Assembly (NCBI GenBank): GCA_011369465.1
Contig: DRQG01000153.1
Span: 1-46,177 of the forward strand
Reading direction: 5' to 3'
From: Caldithrix abyssi
Lineage (GTDB): Bacteria > Calditrichota > Calditrichia > Calditrichales > Calditrichaceae
DNA: 46,177 bases
Shown here one piece after another: positions 1,130 through 25,986 of the stretch. A program made the translations under genes and the position numbers. How positions within the stretch are numbered: the first letter of the stretch is position 1; the number at the start of each line of letters is the position of its first letter. A model generated the notes under the pieces. That model saw only the letters and a list, made by a program, of their open reading frames with translations. It was not told the origin of the DNA and did no database searches.

Positions 1130-2185
1130 ATGCAAGAGATCAAGCTGACGGCCATGGTGGCCTGCGCCGGTTGAGCCAGCAAAATTGATCCGGAGGTTCT
1201 GGACAGGATAACAGCGCATTTGCCTAAAGCCGAAAACAGGCGGCTATTGGTGGATCAACATTCGGCCGATGACGCCAGCGTATATCTGGTGCGTGAAAAT
1301 CTGGCCGTTATCAACACCGTGGATTTCTTTACGCCAATTGTGGATGATCCTTACCTCTACGGCAGCATTGCGGCGGCTAACGCTCTCAGCGATGTTTACG
1401 CCATGGGCGGCAGGCCGATTACGGCCCTGAATATTCTCGGTTTTCCTCAGGGAAAACTACCGGAAGAAATTGTGGCCGAAATTATGCGCGGCGGCGCCGA
1501 GAAAGCGGCTGAGGCAGAATGTGTTATTGCAGGCGGTCATTCCATACAGGATAAGGAAATCAAATATGGGCTGGCCGTCACGGGAATCGTACACCCGAAT
1601 AAAATATGGCGTAATAATACCGTCCGGGAAGGTGATATTCTCATACTCACCAAGCCGCTGGGAACGGGTGCGGTAAGTACGGCACTTAAGCAGGGTAAAG
1701 CATCCCGGGAAGCCGTGGACGAAATTGTACGGAGCATGAGCGCCCTGAATCGCATTCCGGCTGAGATTTTGCAAAAAAACAATGTTGATGTACACGCCTG
1801 TACCGATATTACCGGTTACGGACTGGCCGGCCATTTGCTGGAAATGACCGGCGAATCCGGGTTGTCTGTTCAAATCGAACTGGAAGAGCTGCCCATATTT
1901 GACGAAGCAAAATCCTATTTAAAAAATCCTTCTTTTTTACCCGGTGGCTTCTATAATAATCGCTCGTATAGCGGCAGATATATCAGCGCTCCCGATTCAA
2001 TAGAGAACGAACTCTATAATGTCTTATTTGATCCTCAAACCAGCGGCGGACTTGTTATCGCCCTACCCGAATTGGAAGTAGAACGTTTTCTGCAACAGCT
2101 GGAAGAATCATATTTATACAGGGGTTGGGTAATCGGGCAGGTAGTGCCGCGCGAAGTGAATAAAAAGCCGTTATTGATTGTTTAG
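1130..2185 (+). CDS. selD: Selenide, water dikinase (SelD), probable selenoprotein with in-frame TGA at 1172
   Basis: SelD makes selenophosphate from selenide and ATP, the selenium donor for selenocysteine-tRNA and 2-selenouridine. The frame opens at ATG 1130 and reads ...C-A-G-(TGA)-A-S-K-I-D-P, then stays open to 2185. Three residues upstream of Lys18, where other SelD proteins carry the catalytic Cys or Sec (Cys17 of E. coli), there is a TGA. Counting it as Sec15 gives 351 residues, the normal family length. Downstream motifs fit SelD: DDASVY, FFTPIVDDPYLYGSIAAANA, SDVYAMGG, an IAGGHSIQ segment and FDPQTSGG near the C-terminus. A purine-rich AGGAAGAGG at 1111-1119 could serve as ribosome site. 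A naive gene caller would start at TTG 1220 and lose the active site. It sits one base after the DUF58 gene and overlaps the convergent dipeptidase gene by four bases. Confidence 0.93.
1172..1204 (+). promoter_or_regulatory. Sec codon (TGA) and candidate bacterial SECIS hairpin
   Basis: TGA 1172-1174 is the presumed selenocysteine codon of selD. Bacterial SECIS hairpins lie directly 3' of the codon, within the coding sequence. Here CCAG 1176-1179 can pair with CTGG 1199-1202, and ATCC 1188-1191 with GGTT 1195-1198 (one U-U mismatch), leaving a three-base GGA apical loop 18-20 bases after the TGA. The fold has an eight-base bulge and is weak, so the hairpin is tentative. The Sec codon itself is much better supported by protein alignment. 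Confidence 0.45.
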
Positions 2186-3774
2186 AATTTTTCATCGTAT
2201 TTTGTCCATAAAAAATCACCCAATTTCCAGGCTTCTTTTACAACCGTATCACCCCATTTCAGGCCGTAATCGGTGAGGAATCGTTTCGCCGCTGCTTTAT
2301 CTTTTTTATAGAGCTGCAATGCCTTTTGTTCAATATTGTTCTGTTCATTAAACAATTTATTTTGAATGGGCTTCCAAATATTCTCGATATCGTGCCGCAT
2401 ATCTCCCCAGCGCTGAGCGGCCAATGTACCAAGGCGGTTAAAGGCCCACCAGGCGGAATCGCGTGTATATCCGTTTACCCGTCCGGGTGTTTTATAGGAT
2501 TGCGGCACATCGGAGATCCCTGCATAAAAAGGTACGTAAACCGAAGTGGCCACATTATCCCAGGCCAGCCAGACCACGCCGCCAATTTCGTTAGGCAGCC
2601 AATCACGTGATTGCGAAATGAACGCATAAATCGTGTACCAGCGGGCAATGGTGCGTTCGCCGCGCCAGCCCCATCCGCCGTTAATTTTGAACAGGGGCAG
2701 CATATCGTAAGGCATAAACGGATTGGCCAGCGGCGAAATTTCCGTTTTACCCTGCCGGTTTACCCAGGTTATGTTTTTAACCGGATTAAAATCCGTCCCT
2801 TCGTAATAATCCTGAAAAATACGCACCATCTTTTGCAGCGTAACCAGACTGTCCGGTTTAACGGAAAATGGATAGTTTTCCGCATTGGGCGGTAATTTGA
2901 GGGAGGGCGCCATCAGCGAGAGCACCCGCCATTCACGCCGGCGGCTGGCAAAAGAATTACGGCCGTCCGGATCATAAGCGTAGCAGAACTCAAAAGGACC
3001 CTTCTGCGGATTCCACCAGCCGCTGTCCTGAGCGACCTGAAAGACATTGGCCGAGGCCATAAAATAGTCGGTATTGTCCAAATCAATCTGACGGATGCGG
3101 CTGGCGTTGGCGTTAACGGACACCTCGTCATCGGGTACGCGTTGCGCGGCCCATACGGCTCCCTTGTTGCCTTTGCCCGGGCCCACGATTTCCAGCATCC
3201 AAATTTCTTTGGTATCGGCAATGGTCAGGCATTCGCCGGTATCAATCCAGCCGTATTCTTTCAGTAGTTCGCCGGCCAGTTGAATCGCTTCCCTTGCCGT
3301 TGAACAGCGCTCCAAAAGCAGCTCGGTAAGTTGTTCCACCATAATCATTCCGTTATCCGAGCGCAGTGCGCTTCGGCCGCCGAAGGTGGACTCGCCGATG
3401 GATAACTGCTGATCATTCATACAACGCATATCGGTGTTGATATACCCGTGGGTATGTGTTACCTGCGGAATCTCGCCAACGTAAACATGCTTATAAAGCG
3501 GCATAGCTTTATCGTTATCATTAACACGTTTGAGCAGGGTTTTTTTGCTGCCTTTTTTATATGTTTTTGCCGGAACAATATCAAACCAGGTACGATAGCG
3601 GTGGCCGTCCAGCGTATGCGAGTTGATTACCGAACCGTCAAAGCTGGCCTTTTTGCCCACCAGCACAGTGGTGCAGGCATCGGAGCGGAGATTTGTATTA
3701 TTACTGTTTTTCGAAAAAGCTGCATCTGTTTGCAGAGTCAGAATAAAAATCGCGATCATAAACCATTTTGCCAT
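2182..3774 (-). CDS. Secreted peptidase family C69 (PepD-like) dipeptidase
   Basis: This 530-residue protein resembles the C69 dipeptidases (PepD/secernin type), N-terminal-nucleophile hydrolases whose nucleophile is a Cys exposed after removal of a leader. The segment D-A-C-T-T-V-L-V-G follows a hydrophobic leader (MAKWFMIAIFILTLQTDAAFS) and a short linker, so this Cys (residue 34) is the expected nucleophile. The following S-F-D-G-S-V-I-N-S-H-T is the usual family continuation. It probably hydrolyses dipeptides outside the cytoplasm. I chose the ATG at 3774 over one seven codons upstream (3795), because GGAG lies nine bases before it and a clean signal peptide follows. The 3' end overlaps the selD stop by four bases, tail to tail. 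A gap of about 240 bases upstream suggests its own promoter. Confidence 0.85.
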   Translation of the reverse strand: MAKWFMIAIFILTLQTDAAFSKNSNNTNLRSDACTTVLVGKKASFDGSVINSHTLDGHRYRTWFDIVPAKTYKKGSKKTLLKRVNDNDKAMPLYKHVYVGEIPQVTHTHGYINTDMRCMNDQQLSIGESTFGGRSALRSDNGMIMVEQLTELLLERCSTAREAIQLAGELLKEYGWIDTGECLTIADTKEIWMLEIVGPGKGNKGAVWAAQRVPDDEVSVNANASRIRQIDLDNTDYFMASANVFQVAQDSGWWNPQKGPFEFCYAYDPDGRNSFASRRREWRVLSLMAPSLKLPPNAENYPFSVKPDSLVTLQKMVRIFQDYYEGTDFNPVKNITWVNRQGKTEISPLANPFMPYDMLPLFKINGGWGWRGERTIARWYTIYAFISQSRDWLPNEIGGVVWLAWDNVATSVYVPFYAGISDVPQSYKTPGRVNGYTRDSAWWAFNRLGTLAAQRWGDMRHDIENIWKPIQNKLFNEQNNIEQKALQLYKKDKAAAKRFLTDYGLKWGDTVVKEAWKLGDFLWTKYDEKF

Positions 3775-4017
3775 CACAAGAAGCTCCTTTTCCATTGAAC
3801 ATTAAAATCTAAAGGAAAGATTACACGGTTTTGAGTTTCCATTTATTGCAATAGACCGATATTGCGGTTGGAATGTATCGTAAAATCATCCTTTTTTGTA
3901 TCACTGCAAAACCACCGGAATAAAGCCTGCTCTTTCATTGTACCGAAGTTTTTCTTAGCGGAGCAGTCACTATCCATATTTATATACAATTATCTGATCA
4001 TGAAAAATATTTCCGGG

Positions 4018-5802
4018 TTAGGTATTATTTTTAATCAGTTCTTCTAATCGAGTTAATTGCTTGCGAATTTCGGTTATTACTTCCGTATTAGGTATGCGCC
4101 ATAACGTACCGGGCATCATGGTAACAATTGTTTTTTTATCGAATATTTGATAATGTAAACCGAAATATTTTACATAGGGTAACCGTACGCCGGGTCTTCC
4201 GGGTATGGGAACTTCCGGATAAATTGCCGGATGCGAAATCAATATTTCTCTCGGAGGTAACCGGAAAATTCCCGGACGATTTAAAAATTTACTGGTTAGG
4301 TTAATTAAAAAAATGACAAACCAGCCATGTATTTTCTTTCTTGAGTTTACGAAGAATGAAAACAGATAATGAAAGGGTAGCGTACGTCTCATTTTACGCG
4401 TATGCTCACTAATAGAATGCACCGCTTTTTTTAACAGATGCATCGTCCGTTTTTTATCCGATGGATTGCCGATATAATGTTCCACGAATTCTTTCACCTC
4501 GGACGTGGTTACAACCGCTGTAATTAATCCCATATAACGGTATTTGGACATAGACAGAAACTGAGTGACCCGGGCCACTGTCCCGGTAAGACGATAAGCG
4601 GCCAATTCCAAAGCAATAATAAATATGTTGACCGGTTGGAATCCATAAGCTGAAAAATTGTTTCTGCCGATACCTTCAATCTCGAAGGTTGCCTGCTGGG
4701 TATCCAGAATCATTTGGACGTCCCGCCAGGCCGCACGAAGGAAGTTGCCGGGAAGGCGCCAGATCAGTTTTTGATAGGAAAGTTTTGGGCTTTCGATGTT
4801 TTTGCTGTCAAGCGGTTCGGATTGTGCTCTTTTTTGGATTTCCGCAGCGCCGCGCATCATTACATTACCATCGATATATGTTCCGAAATTGCCGATAACG
4901 CAGGCGCGGGCATTTCCGAATACAACCAGTTGCAAACTGGAATGAAACCATCGGTTGGCCATGTTATCGGCATGAGAGCGATAAACAGCTTCGGAATAAC
5001 TGAGCGGAGCGCTTTCCAAATCCAGACAAACGGTTATAAAAATATGACGCAGCCGCTCCAGGTTTTGCCTGTCGGGTTTATTTTTGTGTAACCAGCGGAA
5101 TGCTTTAAATTGCGTCCCGGATGTGGATGCTGTTATAATGCCAATTGCAGTTTCGTTATTTTTAAGCGGATTGTTATACGCTTCCTCACTGATCTGTTCC
5201 AAAATATCCCGAATTTGTTGAACTGAAACGAGACTTGCCTCTTGCTCTATCCTCAAAATGAATTGACGGCGATTTACCATAATCAATACATCTTGTACTT
5301 GCGTGCTTTTTAATACTGCTGCCCTGTTATTGATAATGGTCGTGCAGGTGGAAAAAAGATTGGGATACTGACCCATTTCCAAAACATGATCTTTATATTT
5401 GTCCGGCGTAAGTGTGCCCGATGAAATGTCCTTGTGCAGGGAATAAGCGCCTTTTATGAGTGTCGCTGCCCGTTCAAAAGGGTCGGAAATCCGAGGGTCG
5501 TCTTTCAATGCCAAAGATGCAGAGATAACCGGCATGAACAATCCGCCAACGCGCAAATTGGTCTTACGCATTAACGATTCCAGATTATCCGGAAGTTCGC
5601 GGCTAAATTTCTTAAATCCGCTGATAAGCAGGATGAATTTTATGAATCGGAAAGTCCCAACTTTATTTGCGGGAATAATATCTTTTAAAAATTCAAAATG
5701 TTCCAAATTCGGCAATGGCGCCAATGGAGGAAGAGGGTAGTTGGGATGGTGTTCATAAATGTCCCGGCTTCGTATTTGGGAATCGGAAAAGAAACTTTTC
5801 AT
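4018..5802 (-). CDS. Divergent choline/carnitine O-acyltransferase family protein, probably catalytically inactive
   Basis: The 594 residues align by eye with the choline/carnitine acyltransferase family along most of their length. The start has a LPPLAPLPNLEHFEFLKDIIP stretch like the family's L-P-x-L-P-V-P-x-L opening. At 246-262 it has NLERLRHIFITVCLDLE, like the family's L-x-x-I-x-x-x-x-F-x-V-C-L-D. At 285-312 it has WFHSSLQLVVFGN...GNFGTYIDG, and near 410-435 ALELAAYRLTG followed by SMSKYRYMG, where enzymes have Q-L-A-x-Y-R-x-x-G and a S-T-R-x-F-x-x-G-R-T-E motif. In the enzymes the catalytic His sits in N-(F/Y)-E-H-(S/A)-x-x-(D/E)-G. The ungapped counterpart here is Gly307, and no His is close by. 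The GRTE substrate-binding motif is also lost (GLIT). So it is a family member by fold, but acyl transfer is doubtful. It lies 48 bases downstream of the YkgJ-like gene on the same strand, and GGGAT precedes its ATG. Confidence 0.75.
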   Translation of the reverse strand: MKSFFSDSQIRSRDIYEHHPNYPLPPLAPLPNLEHFEFLKDIIPANKVGTFRFIKFILLISGFKKFSRELPDNLESLMRKTNLRVGGLFMPVISASLALKDDPRISDPFERAATLIKGAYSLHKDISSGTLTPDKYKDHVLEMGQYPNLFSTCTTIINNRAAVLKSTQVQDVLIMVNRRQFILRIEQEASLVSVQQIRDILEQISEEAYNNPLKNNETAIGIITASTSGTQFKAFRWLHKNKPDRQNLERLRHIFITVCLDLESAPLSYSEAVYRSHADNMANRWFHSSLQLVVFGNARACVIGNFGTYIDGNVMMRGAAEIQKRAQSEPLDSKNIESPKLSYQKLIWRLPGNFLRAAWRDVQMILDTQQATFEIEGIGRNNFSAYGFQPVNIFIIALELAAYRLTGTVARVTQFLSMSKYRYMGLITAVVTTSEVKEFVEHYIGNPSDKKRTMHLLKKAVHSISEHTRKMRRTLPFHYLFSFFVNSRKKIHGWFVIFLINLTSKFLNRPGIFRLPPREILISHPAIYPEVPIPGRPGVRLPYVKYFGLHYQIFDKKTIVTMMPGTLWRIPNTEVITEIRKQLTRLEELIKNNT

Positions 5803-5850
5803 AATATCCCTTGCATTCTGTTGAGTAAGAATATTTTGATATATTTCTTA

Positions 5851-6342
5851 TCAGATAAATAGGGAACGCAAATCCACACGCTGTAGATTATTGTAATATT
5901 TCATTTGCATTTCGGCTAATTTTTGTTCGTACGCGCCTATGCTCCAACATTGTTCCGGGGGAAGATTTTCTACGGGAGTACCTTCATCATTCAAAGGACA
6001 AATATCACGCAACTCAACCCAACCCGATTCCGTTTCTTCCAGCCAGCGCAGGGGCAGGCCTTGTGTACGGCAGACATAGGGCCGATGAGAGTAAATGCGG
6101 CAAGCGCCTTTTTCATCCAAAAAAGCGCAGGCGCCGGGGGCGTGCGGCGGCTCGGTGTTTAAAAGTTCACTAAAGTGAAGACGGATATTATCGGCTTCAA
6201 TCATAAAAACGGTTATATCATCCACACAGCAGTCTTTGCAACCAACAGCACAATGTAGCCGATCTTTATGTATGGTTTCAATCGCTGCCGCGAATTTATC
6301 CACCTGCCGGTAGAAGGCGCCTAACTCATCGGTTTGTTCCAT
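5851..6342 (-). CDS. YkgJ-family cysteine-cluster protein
   Basis: This is a 163-residue member of the YkgJ/UPF0153 family, thought to bind zinc or iron through a Cys cluster. The N-terminal C-x3-G-C-x2-CC (CAVGCKDCC, residues 31-39) and the later C-A-F-L-D...G-A-C-R-I-Y-x-x-R-P-x-x-C-R motif are typical. Further Cys residues occur in ICPLN and EQCWS. The biochemical role of the family is not settled. The gene starts from its own upstream region and is followed after 48 bases by the acyltransferase-like gene, suggesting a two-gene transcript. No clear ribosome site precedes ATG 6342; instead a perfect 12-base palindrome overlaps the start codon. Confidence 0.85.
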   Translation of the reverse strand: MEQTDELGAFYRQVDKFAAAIETIHKDRLHCAVGCKDCCVDDITVFMIEADNIRLHFSELLNTEPPHAPGACAFLDEKGACRIYSHRPYVCRTQGLPLRWLEETESGWVELRDICPLNDEGTPVENLPPEQCWSIGAYEQKLAEMQMKYYNNLQRVDLRSLFI

Positions 6343-17413: not shown

Positions 17414-18799
17414 ATGGCTGACGCGAGTGCGACACCGCTAACGGAAATGGAAATTTCACGGAACGAAATCCGCAAACATCTTCAGGATGCGCTGAACAAT
17501 TTAGCAGGAAAGCAATCGGTTGTTCGTATAGAGTTTAAAGTGGATGCGACCGATATCTTGTGCTGGCTTCATAACCAGCGGAGCACCAACCGCTTGTACT
17601 GGAGCGACCGTGAACGCCGCTTCGAAATGGCCGGCATCGGTACGGAACGGATTATAAGCGGCAAAAATATGTCCGGGCTGAACGGGGCGCTGTTGGAAAT
17701 GAAGCAAATCACCCGGATGGATAAACGTCTGCGTTTTTTTGGCGGATTGCGTTTCAGCGAAGCGGATCATCGGGATAACAGCTGGACCGATTTCGGTTTT
17801 TTCCGCTTTCATCTGCCCACCTTTGAACTGGGGCGAAGGGAAGATGAATACTACTTTGCCTGCAACGTGAAAAAAGACGATGAAGCCGATATAAATGCGT
17901 TGCGGAATAAATATCTGTCCGAGTTTGATCGTCTCAATTTCGCTGCCGGAGGCCACCCGGCGCAGGATTTCCGGTTTATTAGCCGCAGCGACAACCCCGA
18001 TAAAACCGGGTGGAAAGCCAACGTCCAAAAGGCTCTGGATTATCTACGGGCTAATGGTCTCAAAAAAGTGGTGTTAGCCCGCAATTCCCGTCTGGAATTC
18101 CGGCAGGCGCCTCAGCCGGAAGCCATTCTGGACGCCCTGCGCGTCAGCAATCCCAATTCCTTCCTGTTTCTGTTTGAAGGTGGCCCCAACCATTTTTTTA
18201 TCGGCAGTACGCCGGAGCGCCTGTATTATCGTACCGGGCGTCAGCTGCTCACCGAAGCCGTGGCCGGCACCCGTCGCCGCGGCAGCACACCGGCCGAAGA
18301 CCAGCGCCTGAAACAGGACCTGCTGACCTGTGAGAAAGATTTACGCGAGCATGATTACGTGGTGCAGACCATCGAACAGGTTTTACGGAAATTTAGTTTG
18401 GATATCGAAAAAGACGAGCAGGTGGGCATTCTGGAAAATGTGCGTGTTCAGCATTTACTGGTGCGGTTCAAAGCGCGTTTGCAAAACGATGTGAACGACA
18501 CGCACATCTTGCCGGCATTGCATCCCACACCGGCCGTGGGCGGTTTTCCCACCGGCGCGGCTCTGCATAAAATCAGCGAGTTCGAGCAATTTGACCGCGG
18601 CTGGTATGCCGGGCCCGTGGGCTGGATCGGGCAGGACGAAGCCGAATTTGCCGTGGCTATCCGCTCGGCATTACTGCAGGCCAATACCATTAATCTGTTC
18701 AGCGGCGCCGGACTGGTGGACGGCTCCGATCCCGAAGCCGAGTGGCAGGAACTGGAAAACAAAATTGCCAACTACCTAAAAATATTGCAAGCCGAATGA
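17414..18799 (+). CDS. menF: Isochorismate synthase MenF
   Basis: MenF converts chorismate to isochorismate, the committed step of classical menaquinone synthesis. The 461-residue protein carries the chorismate-binding domain in its C-terminal two thirds: KKVVLARNS (the general-base Lys), FFIGSTPERLYYR, EAVAGTRRRG, LHPTPAVGGFPT and GWYAGPVGWIG, all characteristic of isochorismate synthases. The N-terminal 180 residues are the more variable domain. It heads the men cluster and overlaps menD by four bases (ATGA). Salicylate or enterobactin isochorismate synthases share the domain, but the adjacent menD settles the role. Confidence 0.95.
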   Translation: MADASATPLTEMEISRNEIRKHLQDALNNLAGKQSVVRIEFKVDATDILCWLHNQRSTNRLYWSDRERRFEMAGIGTERIISGKNMSGLNGALLEMKQITRMDKRLRFFGGLRFSEADHRDNSWTDFGFFRFHLPTFELGRREDEYYFACNVKKDDEADINALRNKYLSEFDRLNFAAGGHPAQDFRFISRSDNPDKTGWKANVQKALDYLRANGLKKVVLARNSRLEFRQAPQPEAILDALRVSNPNSFLFLFEGGPNHFFIGSTPERLYYRTGRQLLTEAVAGTRRRGSTPAEDQRLKQDLLTCEKDLREHDYVVQTIEQVLRKFSLDIEKDEQVGILENVRVQHLLVRFKARLQNDVNDTHILPALHPTPAVGGFPTGAALHKISEFEQFDRGWYAGPVGWIGQDEAEFAVAIRSALLQANTINLFSGAGLVDGSDPEAEWQELENKIANYLKILQAE

Positions 18800-20526
18800 C
18801 CTCCGCCGATGCAAATTGGAATCATTTCTGGAGTCGTTTAATCATCAGCGAACTTGTCCGTCAGGGTGTCCGCTATTTTTGTATCTCTCCCGGCTCGCGT
18901 TCCACACCTTTAACCGTCGCCGCGGCGCAGCATCCTCAGGCCAGGTCCGCTATTTTTTATGATGAACGGGCCGCCGCCTTCCATGCTTTGGGTTACGCCC
19001 GGGCCTGCGGAAAACCGGCCGCGTTAATCTGCACTTCCGGAACGGCCGCGGCCAATTACTATCCGGCCGTTATCGAAGCGGCCCAGGAAAATATTCCGCT
19101 TGTCATCCTCAGCGCCGACCGCCCGCCGGAACTGCGCGACAGCGGCGCCAATCAAACCATCGATCAAGTCAAACTATTCGGCGCGTATGTACGCTGGTTC
19201 TTCGATCTGCCTGCACCGGACGGGCAAATGGATCCGGCCTTTGTGCTGCGCACGGTAGATCGGCTTCTGGCCCATTCCGACAGTGGGCCGGTGCATCTTA
19301 ACTGTATGTTCCGTGAACCGCTGGCGCCGGAGGATATCCGCTTACCCGAAGGTTACAATCAAAGCATTCAACGCTGGGAAGAAAGCGCCCGGCCCTGGAC
19401 GCGGTACGAAAAAGGCCGGACAATCTTAAACGAAGAAACGTTGAACGCCGTTATTCGTCGTATCAATCAGGCCGAAAACGGACTTGTGCTGCTGGGGCGG
19501 TTGAACCCAAATCAGGATAACGAGGCCGTTGTTCAGTTCTGCGAACGCCTGGGCTGGCCGGTTTTTGCCGATATCACTTCGGGATGGCGTCTTTCAAAAG
19601 ATTTACCCCATGCTATCCCGTATTACGATTGGCTTCTATCCGCCGAACAACCGCATTTTGATACGGTAGTGCATCTGGGCGGACGGTACGTATCCAAACG
19701 GCTGATGCAGCTATTGGAAAAAAACAAACCACAGCTCTATTATCACATTGATGATACCGGCCAAACGATTGACCCGGTTTCCGTGGTTACCGCCCGGCTG
19801 TTGGTCGCGCCGGATCAATTCTGCAGGCAGGCGCTGCCATTGATGGCGGATAGGAAACCGGCGCAGGCAACGCTGCATCTTAAAAACCGTTCCGAGAAGG
19901 TCGGGCGTATTTTGGACGAAACGCTGCACGAAACCGATGCACTGAACCAGCCGCTGCTCAGCCGCATCGTGTCGGAGTTGTTGCCCGCTGACGGCGCGTT
20001 GTTTTTGGCATCCAGTCTGCCGGTGCGCGAAATGAACTGGTTTGGAAGCGCGGGAAAAAATTGGTTGCCCGTAGCCGCCAATCGCGGCGCCAGCGGTATT
20101 GACGGTACCGTAGCCTCCGCTGCCGGATTTGCCGCCGGGCTGGAACAAACCGTCACTTTGTTAATAGGCGATCTGGCTCTTCTGCACGATCTGAATTCTT
20201 TATTGATCCTGAAAAATAACGAGCAGCCGGTGATTGTTATTGTGGAAAATAATCACGGCGGCGGCATTTTTCATTTTTTACCCATCGTGGAATATGATGC
20301 CGTATTTGAATCGTTTTTTGCCACGCCACACCAACTCAATTTTGAACACGCAGCAAAAATGTTTGATCTGCCTTATTTCACGGCGCGAACCCCTGCCGAA
20401 TTGCGGGATGTCTATCAACAGACATTGAAAACACGGCGTTCGGCGCTGATCGAAGTGACAACCGACCGCAGTGAAAACGCCAAACTGCATAAAACCATTC
20501 TACAGCGGATTAAAGAACGACTATGA
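18796..20526 (+). CDS. menD: 2-succinyl-5-enolpyruvyl-6-hydroxy-3-cyclohexene-1-carboxylate synthase MenD
   Basis: MenD is a thiamine-diphosphate enzyme that joins isochorismate with 2-oxoglutarate. With the start at ATG 18796 (overlapping the menF stop) it has 576 residues; an in-frame ATG at 18742 lies inside menF and is rejected. Diagnostic motifs are ISPGSRSTPLT near the N-terminus, YDERAAAFHALG with the cofactor-activating Glu, CTSGTAAANYYPAVIEA, SADRPPELRDSGANQTIDQ, and the ThDP/Mg site GDLALLHDLNSL...NNHGGGIFHFLP. It also overlaps menH by four bases. Confidence 0.96.
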   Translation: MTSADANWNHFWSRLIISELVRQGVRYFCISPGSRSTPLTVAAAQHPQARSAIFYDERAAAFHALGYARACGKPAALICTSGTAAANYYPAVIEAAQENIPLVILSADRPPELRDSGANQTIDQVKLFGAYVRWFFDLPAPDGQMDPAFVLRTVDRLLAHSDSGPVHLNCMFREPLAPEDIRLPEGYNQSIQRWEESARPWTRYEKGRTILNEETLNAVIRRINQAENGLVLLGRLNPNQDNEAVVQFCERLGWPVFADITSGWRLSKDLPHAIPYYDWLLSAEQPHFDTVVHLGGRYVSKRLMQLLEKNKPQLYYHIDDTGQTIDPVSVVTARLLVAPDQFCRQALPLMADRKPAQATLHLKNRSEKVGRILDETLHETDALNQPLLSRIVSELLPADGALFLASSLPVREMNWFGSAGKNWLPVAANRGASGIDGTVASAAGFAAGLEQTVTLLIGDLALLHDLNSLLILKNNEQPVIVIVENNHGGGIFHFLPIVEYDAVFESFFATPHQLNFEHAAKMFDLPYFTARTPAELRDVYQQTLKTRRSALIEVTTDRSENAKLHKTILQRIKERL

Positions 20527-21308
20527 ACCTCAACGCCCAATGGACGGACAACGGCGTCGCGCAAACCCTCGTGTATCTGCACGGTTTTATGGGCAGCGCG
20601 GCGGACTGGGAACAGATTGAGGCGCGATTAGGAACAGATTTTAATCATTTGCGGATCGATTTGCCCGGACATGGGAAATCGCCGTTGCAAGAAAATACGG
20701 ATTTCCCGCGGACAGCCCGGCAGATAATCGACTTGCTGAATGAACGCGGCATCCAAAAGGCCCATTGGGTCGGTTACTCTATGGGCGGACGCATTTTGCT
20801 CTATTTTGCTTTGCAGTATCCCCGGCCGGTGCTGTCGCTGGTACTGGAATCGGCGTCGCCCGGGCTGGAAAGCCGTAAGGACAGGGAAAAACGAAAAACG
20901 GCGGATGTTCAGACGGCGCAAAAGCTGCGGCAGGATTTAAAGGCTTTTTTGGCGGATTGGTACCGCCAACCGCTCTTTGGTTACATTACGGACAATGAAC
21001 GTTATGCGGAATTGATTCAACGGCGGCTGAAGAATGATCCGGACAGGCTGGCTAAAGCAATGATAAATTTAAGCGTCGCGGAACAACCCGATTTATGGCC
21101 GCGTTTGGGGGAAATATCCTGTCCGGTACTGCTCATCTGTGGCGGACTGGATCAAAAATATGTGGAAATCACAAGACGCATACAGGAAAAACAGCCCGGT
21201 TTTTTACGCCGCGTAGTGCCTGAGTGTGGACACAATACACATTTTGAGCAGCCGGAAAGATTTGCGGAAATTTTAAGGGAGTTTATAATAAGTCTAATTA
21301 CGAATTAG
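20523..21308 (+). CDS. menH: MenH-type alpha/beta hydrolase (SHCHC synthase)
   Basis: MenH eliminates pyruvate from SEPHCHC to give SHCHC. The 261-residue protein is an alpha/beta hydrolase with oxyanion-loop motif LHGFMGSAADW at 19-29, nucleophile elbow GYSMGGR (Ser86), a later Asp in CGGLDQKY and His in CGHNTHFEQPERF. Size, spacing and the position straight after menD (ATGA overlap) fit MenH well. Alpha/beta hydrolases are hard to tell apart by sequence alone, so the specific name rests partly on context. Repeat DNA follows for about 340 bases before menB. Confidence 0.88.
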   Translation: MNLNAQWTDNGVAQTLVYLHGFMGSAADWEQIEARLGTDFNHLRIDLPGHGKSPLQENTDFPRTARQIIDLLNERGIQKAHWVGYSMGGRILLYFALQYPRPVLSLVLESASPGLESRKDREKRKTADVQTAQKLRQDLKAFLADWYRQPLFGYITDNERYAELIQRRLKNDPDRLAKAMINLSVAEQPDLWPRLGEISCPVLLICGGLDQKYVEITRRIQEKQPGFLRRVVPECGHNTHFEQPERFAEILREFIISLITN

Positions 21309-21331
21309 TTAATTACGAATTACAAATGTAT

Positions 21332-21349
21332 CGCAAGATTTATCTTGCG
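21332..21349. repeat. 18-base palindrome, copy 1
   Basis: CGCAAGAT-TT-ATCTTGCG, two perfect 8-base arms around two bases, lies just after menH. Further copies at 26082-26099 (same loop) and 45942-45959 (loop GA) make it a dispersed family. Confidence 0.8.
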
Positions 21350-21360
21350 CTCAGAAAGCC

Positions 21361-21512
21361 GACCCTTCGACCCCGACAAGTCGGGACAGGCAGGGCTTAC
21401 CCTTCGACAGGCTCAGGGTACGGAGGCTGAGCCTGTCGAAGCCTCCTGGTTCCCTTCGACGAGCTCAGGGAACGGAGGCTGAACTTTCGACTACACTCAG
21501 GGCAGGCAACTA
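21361..21512. repeat. Intergenic repeat of the CCTGAGCCTGTCGAAGG family downstream of menH
   Basis: The stretch has CCTTCGACCCCGACAAGTCG, then CCCTTCGACAGGCTCAGGGT, then GGAGGCTGAGCCTGTCGAAG and CCCTTCGACGAGCTCAGGGA, so it can fold on itself several times. The first block is shared almost exactly with the gap after lon. Confidence 0.75.
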
Positions 21513-21606
21513 AAAGCCAATAGCCAACAGCTAAAAGCCCAATAACTTAATAACTAAAAACTGATAACTAATAACTAATAACTAATAACTAATAACTGAC
21601 AACTAT
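21511..21606. repeat. Heptamer-like AACTAAT tract upstream of menB
   Basis: From about 21511 the sequence passes through AGCTAAAAGCC-like units into AATAACT heptamers, repeated at 21561-21595, and ends about 40 bases before menB. A very similar tract lies before menG. These low-complexity tracts are not coding. Confidence 0.7.
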
Positions 21607-21648
21607 TAAATCCAATACTGCATTTATTCAAACAAACGGGAGGCCTGT

Positions 21649-22470
21649 ATGATTTCCGTAAACTGGCAGCAAGCCGGTAAATACACCGACATCAAATATC
21701 ATAAAGCCGAGGGTATCGCCAAAATAACCATTAACCGGCCGGAAGTGCGCAATGCTTTTCGTCCGCTCACCGTAAAAGAGATGAGCCACGCCCTGGAAGA
21801 CGCCCGGGAAGACCAAACCATCGGTGTGATTATTCTGACCGGAGAAGGGGACAAAGCCTTCTGCTCCGGAGGCGATCAAAAGATTCGCGGCGACAGCGGC
21901 TATGTGGATGAGCAGGGCGTGCACCGCCTTAATGTGCTCGATTTTCAGCGGCAAATTCGCACCTGCCCCAAACCGGTTATTGCCATGGTTGCCGGTTATG
22001 CCATCGGCGGCGGCCATGTGCTGCATGTGGTCTGCGATTTAACCATTGCCGCGGATAACGCCATTTTCGGGCAGACCGGGCCCAAGGTCGGCTCATTCGA
22101 CGGCGGGTACGGTGCCAGCTATCTGGCGCGTATCGTCGGGCAGAAAAAAGCGCGGGAAATCTGGTATCTGTGCCGGCAGTACAACGCGCAAGAGGCGCTG
22201 GATATGGGATTGGTCAATGCTGTTGTACCGCTGGAAAAGCTGGAAGAAGAAACCGTGCAGTGGGCGCGGGAAATCCTGGCCAACTCGCCGCTGGCCATTC
22301 GCCTGCTCAAATCGGCCTTCAATGCTGACGTGGACGGGCAGACCGGTTTGCAGGAACTGGCCGGCAACGCCACGCTGCTTTATTATATGAGCGAAGAAGC
22401 CCAGGAAGGCCGCGACGCCTTTGTGCAAAAACGCAAACCCGATTTTTCGAAATTTCCGAAGAGACCATAA
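21649..22470 (+). CDS. menB: 1,4-dihydroxy-2-naphthoyl-CoA synthase MenB
   Basis: MenB, a crotonase-fold enzyme, closes the second ring of the naphthoquinone from o-succinylbenzoyl-CoA. The 273 residues carry [16 protein letters not shown], the oxyanion and CoA region [25 protein letters not shown] and the MenB-specific [20 protein letters not shown] followed by [21 protein letters not shown]. The QTG motif marks the bicarbonate-dependent subtype. GGGAGG lies about ten bases before the ATG, so translation is independent of menH across the repeat-filled gap. Confidence 0.97.
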
Positions 22471-22477
22471 AAGTGTA

Positions 22478-22582
22478 AATAACAAATTCCAAAATACAAA
22501 TGATAATTATATTGGAAATTTATAAGCCCTGTTGTAAATTCAGTTAATATTGAGATTTGTTGTTTGTTATTTGGATTTTTGA
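22478..22582. repeat. AT-rich imperfect inverted repeat between menB and menA
   Basis: AATAACAAATTCCAAAATAC (22478-22497) is roughly the inverse of TTTGTTATTTGGATTTTT (about 22563-22580). It fills nearly all of the 120-base gap and resembles the small AT-rich palindromic elements common in such genomes. Arms are imperfect, so this is tentative. Confidence 0.45.
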
Positions 22583-22590
22583 GAACTGTA

Positions 22591-23481
22591 ATGACTACAC
22601 AACTTGATAAATTAAAACATTGGCTCCTGGCGGCGCGGCCGAAAACCCTATGGGCGGCGGTGGCGCCGGTTCTTATCGGTACGGCCATGGCCTATGCCGA
22701 CGGCGTGTTCCATTGGCCTTCGGCAACGGTAGCCCTGGTGCTCTCGCTGCTCATTCAGATCGGCACCAATTTTGCCAATGACTATTTTGATTACATCCAC
22801 GGCGCCGATACGGAGGAACGTACCGGTCCTATGCGCCTTACTCAGGCCGGGCTCATATCGCCGCAACAGATGAAAAAAGCCTTTATACTGATCTTTGCGC
22901 TTACCTTTATCGGCGGAATGTATCTGGTGTGGCGCGGCGGCTGGCCCATATTATTGGTGGGCTTGTTATCCATTTTATTCGGCATACTTTACACCGGCGG
23001 CCCCTTTCCGTTGGGTTACAAGGGTTTGGGCGATGTGCTGGTGCTTGTATTCTTCGGCCCGGTTGCGGTGGGCGGCACGTACTACGTGCAGGCTTTGCAG
23101 ATCAACGGCATTGTCCTGCTAGCCGGTCTGTCGCCGGGAATGATTGCCACTTCCATTCTGGTGGCTAATAATCTGCGCGATATTGCCACGGATCGAAAAG
23201 CGGGCAAACGCACGCTGGCGGTACGCTTCGGCAAAACCTTTTCCCGGCTGGAATATCTGTTTATGCTGGTTTCCGCGGCCCTGATTCCCGTTATGCTCTA
23301 TGTGTACACCCGCGAACATCCCTACGCTATGGCGGCTGTTTTGACTATCCTGTTTTCACTGCCCACGGTCACGACGGTTTTTCGCGAATCCGAAGGCGTC
23401 ACCCTCAATCGGGTTCTGGCCGATACGGGTAAAATTCTTTTATTGTACAGCGTTCTGTTCTCACTGGGATGGATTTTGTGA
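22591..23481 (+). CDS. menA: 1,4-dihydroxy-2-naphthoate polyprenyltransferase MenA
   Basis: MenA attaches the isoprenoid side chain to dihydroxynaphthoate in the membrane and decarboxylates it. The 296-residue protein is strongly hydrophobic, with about eight or nine membrane segments. It has the prenyl-diphosphate motifs NDYFDYIHGADTEERTGP (NDxxDxxxD) and NNLRDIATDRKAGKRTLAVR. I chose ATG 22591 (MTTQLDKLKHWLLAARPKTL) over a TTG nine codons upstream, because the longer form reaches into the repeat. A strong ribosome site is not obvious. menC starts inside its last codons. Confidence 0.95.
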   Translation: MTTQLDKLKHWLLAARPKTLWAAVAPVLIGTAMAYADGVFHWPSATVALVLSLLIQIGTNFANDYFDYIHGADTEERTGPMRLTQAGLISPQQMKKAFILIFALTFIGGMYLVWRGGWPILLVGLLSILFGILYTGGPFPLGYKGLGDVLVLVFFGPVAVGGTYYVQALQINGIVLLAGLSPGMIATSILVANNLRDIATDRKAGKRTLAVRFGKTFSRLEYLFMLVSAALIPVMLYVYTREHPYAMAAVLTILFSLPTVTTVFRESEGVTLNRVLADTGKILLLYSVLFSLGWIL

Positions 23482-24593
23482 AGCCGGTTTCGTTCAAAAT
23501 ATATGCCTTTAATTTACCTCTAAAATATCCCGTAATCGTAGCCGGAAAAAAATTATCGCACCGCTCAGGTCTGCTGCTGGAATTAGGCGATGAAAAGGGC
23601 AGCTCAGGATGGGGTGAAGTAAGTCCTCTGCCGGGTTTGCATCGGCAAACAGCGCAGGAATGCCTTAATGAACTGGTTTCGGCTTTCGAAAAAGATTATT
23701 TGGGCAATATTGATATTGATGCAAATTCACCTTTGGATAGTGTTGCCAAATTATCGTCTTTGCTAACCTCCCCGGCCTCGCGCTTTGGACTGGAAAGCGC
23801 CTTCTTAAATTTACTGGCTACCGCGCAGAATACAAACCCGGCCGCTCTTCTCAACACAAATTATGCCCGTGCGGTTTACATCAACGGGCTGCTTATCGAC
23901 AGTGGGGAAGACGCTGTGTGGGAAATTGCCCGTTTGTACGCTTTGGGTTACCGTTCAGTAAAAATAAAAACGGGCCGGCATAATTTAAATGAAGAACTGG
24001 AAAATCTGCGGCGCATCCTTGCCGAAACGCCTGCCGATATGCGCTTCCGGCTGGACGCCAACCGCCGTTGGACTTTGGATGAAGCCCTTCATTTTGTGAA
24101 AGGCCTGCCGGCCGGAAAAATTGAATATGTGGAAGAACCGCTGAAAAATCCGCAGGACCTGCCCCGGTTTTGCGCAGAATCGCCCTTTCCGGTAGCTTTA
24201 GACGAAACGCTGCGGCAGCCGGACTACAGGGAATATCTCTCGTTACCCGGCGTTGGCACAGCGATATTGAAACCGGCTGTGCTGGGCGGTATAAGGACAG
24301 TGATGGAACGGACTAAAGAAGCCCGTCGGGAAGGCTGTTCCGTGGTTATCAGCGACACCTTTAGCGGCGGAGTGGGTTTGGCGACGCATTTGGCTCTGGC
24401 CGCCGCCTTATCCGAAAATACCGCCGCCGGACTGGACACATACCGTTATTTGCGACAAGACCTGCTGGCACGTCCGCTTACCGTATCGAGCGGCCGGATG
24501 GACGTGGATGAAAATATGAACAGAGCCCGGCAGGTAAATAGGGCCCTGCTTAGCCATAGGATTACCGTGTATGAAAATCCCCTTTCTCATTAA
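23469..24593 (+). CDS. menC: o-Succinylbenzoate synthase MenC
   Basis: MenC, an enolase-superfamily dehydratase, turns SHCHC into o-succinylbenzoate. The 374 residues show the barrel residues of the family: VKIKTGR (the Lys acid/base), FRLDANRRW (metal Asp), VEEPL (metal Glu), ALDET (metal Asp) and ILKPAVLGG (second Lys). The ATG at 23469 overlaps menA by 13 bases; GTG 23478, which overlaps the menA stop exactly, is an alternative three codons in. It overlaps menE by 23 bases. Confidence 0.95.
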   Translation: MDFVKPVSFKIYAFNLPLKYPVIVAGKKLSHRSGLLLELGDEKGSSGWGEVSPLPGLHRQTAQECLNELVSAFEKDYLGNIDIDANSPLDSVAKLSSLLTSPASRFGLESAFLNLLATAQNTNPAALLNTNYARAVYINGLLIDSGEDAVWEIARLYALGYRSVKIKTGRHNLNEELENLRRILAETPADMRFRLDANRRWTLDEALHFVKGLPAGKIEYVEEPLKNPQDLPRFCAESPFPVALDETLRQPDYREYLSLPGVGTAILKPAVLGGIRTVMERTKEARREGCSVVISDTFSGGVGLATHLALAAALSENTAAGLDTYRYLRQDLLARPLTVSSGRMDVDENMNRARQVNRALLSHRITVYENPLSH

Positions 24594-25986
24594 CCGGGCA
24601 GCCCGGCAATTTGGGGAGCGGCCCGCGCTTATATCTGGCGGCGAGACGGTATCCTATGCCGAATATGAACGCAATGTGGCCCGGGCGGCAAAGATTTTAT
24701 CGGATCTGGGCTTACGCCCGCACGAACGAGCGGCGCTTTACGGTAAACCCGCGGCGAAATATGTTTACGCCTTTTGGGCGGCTATGGCCCTTAAATCCAT
24801 GGTCGTTCCGCTCAATACCCGGCTGCCTCTGGACGGCCTGAAAGCTCAGTTGCGCCAAACCGGCTGTTCTTTTTTGGTTGCTGACCACTGGCCGGAAAAT
24901 GCGACGCGTAATGCTCTTTTTTTCCCGATGAACGATCTTGTCCGGATGGACGAAAAAAGAGGAACAATCCCCGCGCAGATAGATGAACGCCAACCGGCGA
25001 CTATCGTCTTTACCTCCGGCAGTTCAGGGGAACCCAGTCCGGCCGTGCTGACGTATGGCAACCACTATTACAACGCCTTAGGTTCCAACGAAAATATCAG
25101 GCTGAATCCTGGCGACCGCTGGCTGCTGTCTTTACCATTGTATCACGTGGCGGGAATTTCTATTTTATTCCGCGCGGCATTGGCCGGCGCCGCGGTAATT
25201 GTGCCCGATGCGAACAATCGGTTGGCCGAACAGATATTGGAAAGCCGGCCGACGCATATCTCTCTGGTTGCGGCGCAATTGGCCGAACTGCTGGAAATAC
25301 AGGATATCCGTTCCGTAATGAAAAATATGCGCGCCATTCTGCTGGGCGGCAGCGCCATTTCGCATAAATTGATCAAACGCGCTTTTGAGGCCGGCTGGCC
25401 GCTGTTTGTTAGTTACGGCAGCACACAGATGGCCTCGCAGATTACCACAACCACGCCGGCGGCCGGTTTGGAAGAGTTGTTCACTTCCGGTTTTGTGCTG
25501 CCGTATCGTGAAGTGCGCATTGGGGAAAATGCTGAGATATTGGTGAAAGGCCAAACGCTTTTTTCCGGGTATTGGGAAAAGGGCAAAATCGTTCCGGCTG
25601 CGGTCGATGATGGCTGGTTCCGTACCGGCGATGCCGGTTTTTTCGACGTCCAAAACCGACTTGTGGTTCAGGGTCGGCTGGATCGTATGTTTATTTCCGG
25701 CGGCGAAAATATCCATCCCGAAGAAATTGAACGGGAGCTGCTCAAAATAGAGGGCGTTCGTCAGGCCGTTGTGGTGGCCTATGACGACGATCGTTTCGGG
25801 CAGCGGCCGGCAGCCTTTGTAAAAGGAATTGACTGGAATGAACAGACGGTGGAAAAAATAAAAGCCCTTTTACGTCGTTCCTTACCCGCATACAAAATTC
25901 CCGACCGCTTCCTGCCCTGGCCGGACGACGCTCCGCAGGGAATGAAAACACCGTGGAAATGGTTTGAGAAGGCAATTAAGAATTAA
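24571..25986 (+). CDS. menE: o-Succinylbenzoate-CoA ligase MenE
   Basis: MenE activates o-succinylbenzoate to its CoA thioester through an acyl-adenylate. The 471 residues cover the acyl-adenylating fold: P-loop FTSGSSGEPSPAV at about 149-161, LPLYHVAG, the A5 motif YGSTQMAS, DDGWFRTGDAGFFD and the hinge VQGRLDRMFISGGENIHPEEIE, with a C-terminal Lys motif in QGMKTPWKW. The usual P-loop Lys (T-G-x-P-K) is replaced by Ser, which is odd but outside the strictly essential residues. Its last codons (I-K-N-stop) lie in an AATTAAG heptamer tract, so repeat DNA supplies its stop codon. Confidence 0.94.
   Translation: MKIPFLINRAARQFGERPALISGGETVSYAEYERNVARAAKILSDLGLRPHERAALYGKPAAKYVYAFWAAMALKSMVVPLNTRLPLDGLKAQLRQTGCSFLVADHWPENATRNALFFPMNDLVRMDEKRGTIPAQIDERQPATIVFTSGSSGEPSPAVLTYGNHYYNALGSNENIRLNPGDRWLLSLPLYHVAGISILFRAALAGAAVIVPDANNRLAEQILESRPTHISLVAAQLAELLEIQDIRSVMKNMRAILLGGSAISHKLIKRAFEAGWPLFVSYGSTQMASQITTTTPAAGLEELFTSGFVLPYREVRIGENAEILVKGQTLFSGYWEKGKIVPAAVDDGWFRTGDAGFFDVQNRLVVQGRLDRMFISGGENIHPEEIERELLKIEGVRQAVVVAYDDDRFGQRPAAFVKGIDWNEQTVEKIKALLRRSLPAYKIPDRFLPWPDDAPQGMKTPWKWFEKAIKN

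Follow-up and report, generated by a model that had tools for sequence, protein, structure and literature searches.

The window analyzed here, a 46,177-nt stretch of Caldithrix abyssi DNA (GCA_011369465.1, contig DRQG01000153.1, numbered on the forward strand), encodes a protein with the fold of the carnitine/choline acyltransferases in which the catalytic histidine is missing. A single histidine defines the carnitine acyltransferases, a textbook family, and a branch without it would be a test case for how active sites come to be rebuilt or converted into scaffolds. The His-less family is probably an enzyme or helper protein of NRPS/PKS pathways. We would regard it as a new variant within a known fold family, with a chemistry that is proposed below.

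Gene, fold, and family membership

The gene begins with ATG and encodes 594 amino acids. The features of the gene and its protein are as follows.

4018..5802, minus strand, stop included: gene for the carnitine/choline acyltransferase-fold protein (open reading frame, Pfam, AlphaFold2, Foldseek)
5808-5812: ribosome-binding-like AAGGG, 5 nt upstream of the start
5713..5772, minus strand: N-terminal family signature R-x-x-D-I-Y-E-x-x-P-x-Y-P-x-P-P-L-x-P-L, residues 11 to 30 (alignments)
4927..4956, minus strand: NRWFHSSLQL, residues 283 to 292, a kept family motif (NRW-x-x-x-x-LQ in CrAT and ChAT; alignments)
4852..4914, minus strand: equivalent of the catalytic EH loop, N297...N305-F306-G307-T-Y309-I-D-G312-N313-V-M-M-R317 (profile alignment, conservation ranking)
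4504..4572, minus strand: equivalent of YES...GRTD/E-T, residues 411 to 433, QFLSMSKYRYMGLITAVVTT (alignments)
4282..4335, minus strand: predicted helix, residues 490 to 507, just before SHP (AlphaFold2 model)
4144..4245, minus strand: C-domain signature, residues 520 to 553, ILISHPAIYPEVPIPGRPGVRLPYVKYFGLHYQI (alignments)

The Pfam family PF00755 was matched over residues 95 to 472 with an E value of 1e-40 (140 bits against a cutoff of 22.3). A single-sequence phmmer comparison with carnitine acetyltransferase gave 2e-13, and a profile of 18 relatives reached rat ChAT at 1.8e-34 and mouse CrAT at 4.9e-33. The AlphaFold2 model was of high confidence (mean pLDDT 90.5, pTM 0.91), and in a Foldseek comparison with the PDB, matches 1 to 28 were all to CrAT, ChAT, CPT2, or COT, with TM values of 0.71 to 0.78. 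The next fold class in that list, the NRPS epimerization and condensation domains, followed at a TM of ~0.35 and an E value of about 1e-6. By homology and by fold, membership in the carnitine/choline acyltransferase family is settled. The preliminary description of this DNA had recognized the family fold, correctly, and had allowed that an unrelated fold might prove the better structural match; the best match is the carnitine/choline acyltransferase family itself. An NCBIfam search with the protein returned no match, so there is no curated NCBIfam family for it, and a PADLOC search likewise returned none, which leaves the gene with no defense link. The viral contigs searched yielded one short match only, of 47 residues over DNMANRWF, and no relative of note.

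The His-less family is rare. The gene was found in 9 of the 40 Calditrichota genomes examined, some of which have two copies, and scattered other carriers are MAGs of Chloroflexota, Acidobacteriota (Bryobacterales), and Bacteroidota. Even samples of 400 Chloroflexota and 396 Bacteroidota genomes each held a single PF00755 member, in both cases the seed genome itself, and no canonical His-bearing member was seen in them; within the class of genome G062, the gene occurred in 4 of 396 genomes. The window copy groups with three other sequences, L012, L023, and L027, termed clade B (bootstrap 90, SH-aLRT 88). The records holding L023 and L028 are titled "Caldisericaceae bacterium AUK261" and correspond to a genome (G012) of the window genome's own family; the title seems to be mislabeled.

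Loss of the catalytic histidine and of the substrate and CoA motifs

The family alignment comprised 20 sequences from different genomes, drawn from Calditrichota, Chloroflexota, Acidobacteriota, and Bacteroidota MAGs; most of the relatives come from MAG contigs. The catalytic histidine of the E-H-x-x-x-D/E-G loop is absent from all 20. The loop reads CEHSPF-DG in ChAT and YEHAAA-EG in CrAT, and CNFSTYLDG in the window family. Both HMMER and hhalign place the canonical histidine opposite Phe306, which is invariant (20/20), with a one-residue insertion following before the DG, and counting back from the following helix places it at residue 307, so that the column is ambiguous by one. The preliminary description, which had the histidine replaced by Gly307, was right about the loss, although the alignments favor Phe306; its expectation that close homologs would share the glycine failed, the glycine being found in the window copy only, with Ser, Thr, or Asn at that position in other family members. 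It had also asked whether another histidine might take the catalytic place, and within the EH-equivalent loop there is none in any of the 20 sequences. A histidine from elsewhere in the three-dimensional structure, H524 or H550, may fill the site. A distant Acidobacteriota homolog, L090 (G1483:C153), has the loop VFSLFAGVEG, likewise without histidine. A literature search found no study of a His-less carnitine acyltransferase family.

The other functional motifs of the family are altered as well. In canonical enzymes, S-T-S supplies the oxyanion/substrate serine, R-T-E/D-T forms the carnitine or choline site, and basic residues contact the CoA phosphate. The GRTE motif is gone, as had been described, and reads GLIT in the window protein (residues 425 to 428); the relatives vary here and none has RTE. 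Within the surrounding stretch (residues 411 to 433), Q414 is invariant and T433 is present in 19 of 20 sequences. No STS motif was found in the C-terminal signature, where S-H-P is invariant. The block corresponding to the CoA contacts, residues 378 to 394, is of average conservation (rank 61%), and its basic residues are variable.

A new conserved signature at the old active site

In a pseudoenzyme that is merely decaying, the active site tends to become less conserved. In this family, the block equivalent to the EH loop (residues 297 to 317) is placed by its conservation in the top 0.35% of windows of the same length, and it carries a signature of its own, N297 and F306-x-x-Y309-x-D-G-N313-x-M-M-R, of which N297, F306, G312, N313, and M315 are invariant across the 20 sequences. 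This argues against simple pseudoenzyme decay and for a kept but changed function. The preliminary description had taken the retained residues to be structural and had proposed a bacterial pseudoenzyme or an enzyme with a new mechanism. The family motifs are indeed retained and the protein is a bacterial His-less homolog, but the EH-loop equivalent is itself among the most conserved regions, which speaks against the plainest form of the pseudoenzyme proposal.

A second conserved block lies in the C-terminal domain (residues 520 to 553, top 4.3% of windows). S523-H524-P525 and H550-Y551-Q552 are present in 19 of 19 sequences, the missing row being a cut contig, and R536-P-G is invariant. From order and spacing, SHP appears to replace the STS strand and LHYQ the GYGxCY strand. 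A profile of the C terminus alone did not reach the canonical C terminus, and the full-length hhalign alignment, which is unreliable in this region, sets SHP opposite LVSMP of CrAT; since the C terminus does not align by profile, the SHP-STS register is the one suggested by that order and spacing. Read by eye, L090 keeps C-H-Y at the H550 position and is without SHP, so H524 is not universal. The predicted helix that precedes SHP (residues 490 to 507) is hydrophobic in most members and is preceded by basic residues, and it is a possible membrane-associating helix.

Gene context and linkage to NRPS/PKS clusters

Of the 20 gene copies, nine are located within or next to NRPS/PKS clusters, one of them (L018) counted by its thioesterase and PPTase neighbors only, and 11, including the window copy, are outside such clusters over the extent of their contigs. 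Cluster domains were mapped with single-sequence phmmer seeds. In a Calditrichota clade (L006, L020, L021, L022, L025, and L028), the gene belongs to a large NRPS-PKS cluster, where it is flanked by an NRPS/PKS gene, a KS-AT-KR(-ACP) gene, or both, some of these contigs showing one flank only. The order in a Chloroflexota locus (L019) is NRPS, MFS exporter, the gene, thioesterase, and phosphopantetheinyl transferase. Two further arrangements are each known from a single contig. At L031, an NRPS and a sulfotransferase are accompanied by one open reading frame (L031:3265-6810) that joins an MFS exporter (residues 24 to 417) to the carnitine acyltransferase-like protein, and at L018, a 1,196-residue frame (L018:106-3693) holds two His-less units in tandem, followed by the thioesterase and PPTase. 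Among the unlinked copies, those of clade B adjoin an SNF-family symporter, and the copy in genome G920 has a his/ilv-like neighborhood, as read from open reading frame starts.

The neighbors of the gene in the window are the following.

5851..6342, minus strand: upstream gene, CxxCxxCC putative metal-binding protein, PF03692, 48 bp away (Pfam)
2182..3795, minus strand: downstream gene, peptidase family C69, PF03577 (Pfam)

The PF03692 gene is a possible operon partner; neither neighbor is conserved at the loci of relatives. Elsewhere in the window, a PKS link suggested by the gene at 24571-25983 was rejected, that gene being MenE-like and part of a menaquinone operon. The operon spans 17414-25986 and encodes a chorismate-binding enzyme, a MenD-like TPP enzyme, a hydrolase, a MenB-like protein, UbiA, MenC, and the MenE-like protein.

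Across the phylum, condensation domains are present in every one of the nine Calditrichota genomes that carry the gene, compared with 16 of the 31 that lack it (Fisher P of 0.015, with kinship ignored). The window genome (G000) has 20 condensation-domain matches, and the gap between its contigs C49 and C50 falls at the expected site of a cluster copy; it may have a second, cluster-borne copy in that gap. Genome G006 has a homologous cluster without the gene, which makes the gene optional to the cluster, and its position varies among clusters.

The Calditrichota clusters form a subject of their own. Condensation domains occur in 25 of the 40 genomes, with a maximum of about 20 in any one. An NRPS-PKS cluster of very large size extends over G005:C1 at about 1620000-1695400 (L066 to L069) and recurs at G006:C52 85001-164223 (L071 to L074) and on contigs C49, C50, and C86 of the window genome. 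The G005 and G006 clusters have a similar gene order, in which one end carries the MFS, thioesterase, PPTase, and sulfotransferase genes. A literature search found no paper on Caldithrix nonribosomal peptides.

Proposed function and alternatives

The conservation peak at the old active site, the linkage to NRPS/PKS genes, and the weak conservation of the CoA site together lead us to favor a rebuilt site for a pantetheine-borne substrate. We propose, tentatively and at somewhat less than even confidence, that the family is a stand-alone protein with a rebuilt active site that acts in trans on carrier-bound chains or products of NRPS/PKS-type pathways. The canonical EH histidine, STS, RTE, and CoA-phosphate contacts would have given way to another conserved active-site set in a protein that most likely still works, probably as a transferase or hydrolase. 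Its substrate would be an acyl or peptidyl chain borne on phosphopantetheine, supplied by a carrier rather than by CoA, or the product released from it. H524 and/or H550 of the C-terminal domain, if they line the cleft, could serve as acid-base residues, and the protein would be membrane associated. The window copy, itself unlinked to NRPS/PKS genes, might do the same job, which is the least certain part of the proposal. A narrower form, in which the catalytic base has moved from the EH loop of the N domain to the histidine of S-H-P and/or LHYQ in the C domain and the enzyme transfers or releases carrier-bound chains in trans, is rather unlikely.

A close rival, which we consider possible but short of probable, is that the protein is a noncatalytic pseudoenzyme, a platform whose retained fold binds or recruits a carrier protein, a tailoring enzyme, or a ligand. 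The loss of the catalytic histidine and the STS serine in every member would be expected of such a platform, as would an optional gene in a variable cluster position, and there is a precedent in the X domains of glycopeptide NRPSs, which have a related fold without HHxxxDG and recruit P450s (PMC8949500). A surface recruiter would not, however, need new polar invariants at the old active site, and it is there that conservation peaks, with N297, N313, S523, H524, H550, and Q552. A housekeeping role outside NRPS/PKS pathways, for example in amine, lipid, or amino acid acyl exchange, with the NRPS linkage reflecting recruitment in one or two clades, is improbable in our judgment. It draws on the 11 unlinked copies, clade B by its symporter, the G920 copy in its his/ilv-like setting, and the window copy by a C69 peptidase, and on the grouping of the window copy with clade B; yet the NRPS-linked copies come from two phyla or more, in differing gene orders, and their signature residues are those of the unlinked copies. 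An ordinary CoA:carnitine/choline acyltransferase whose losses are only apparent, through misalignment or sequencing error, would agree with the significant Pfam match but can be very nearly dismissed, given the absence of the histidine from 20 of 20 sequences in different genomes, the accompanying absence of STS and RTE, and the confident fold model.

If the rebuilt-site proposal is true, a textbook enzyme fold has had its active site reinvented and acts in trans. In the large biosynthetic clusters of Calditrichota and Chloroflexota, the family would be a tailoring or release component that has apparently escaped study, and labels of the "carnitine acyltransferase" kind in databases would misdescribe its members.

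Comparison with known systems

With CrAT, ChAT, CPT2, and COT, the window family has in common the whole two-domain fold, P-x-P-P-L, NRW-x4-LQ, VCLD, and ALQLAYYRxxG. It differs from them in being without the catalytic histidine, STS, and RTE, in the lack of conservation along the CoA-contact stretch, and in the new C-terminal SHP/HYQ signature and hydrophobic helix.

Two systems from assembly lines invite comparison. The X domains of glycopeptide NRPSs have a related fold, have likewise lost their catalytic motif, and work in an NRPS setting (PMC8949500). X and condensation domains differ from the window protein in structure (TM of about 0.35), the X domains are fused in cis, and PF00668, the condensation domain family, was without a match in the window protein at E values up to 10. 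The C-terminal cAT domains of fungal highly reducing PKSs (Tv6-931, LtbA, and MaPKS17a), which off-load carrier-bound chains and retain the catalytic histidine and serine (PMC10901484), belong to the same fold family as the window protein and work with assembly lines; they set a precedent for the release of carrier-bound chains by this fold. Whereas the fungal domains are fused to the PKS and keep both catalytic residues, the bacterial proteins are separate and His-less and, in the linked loci, found with NRPS-PKS hybrids.
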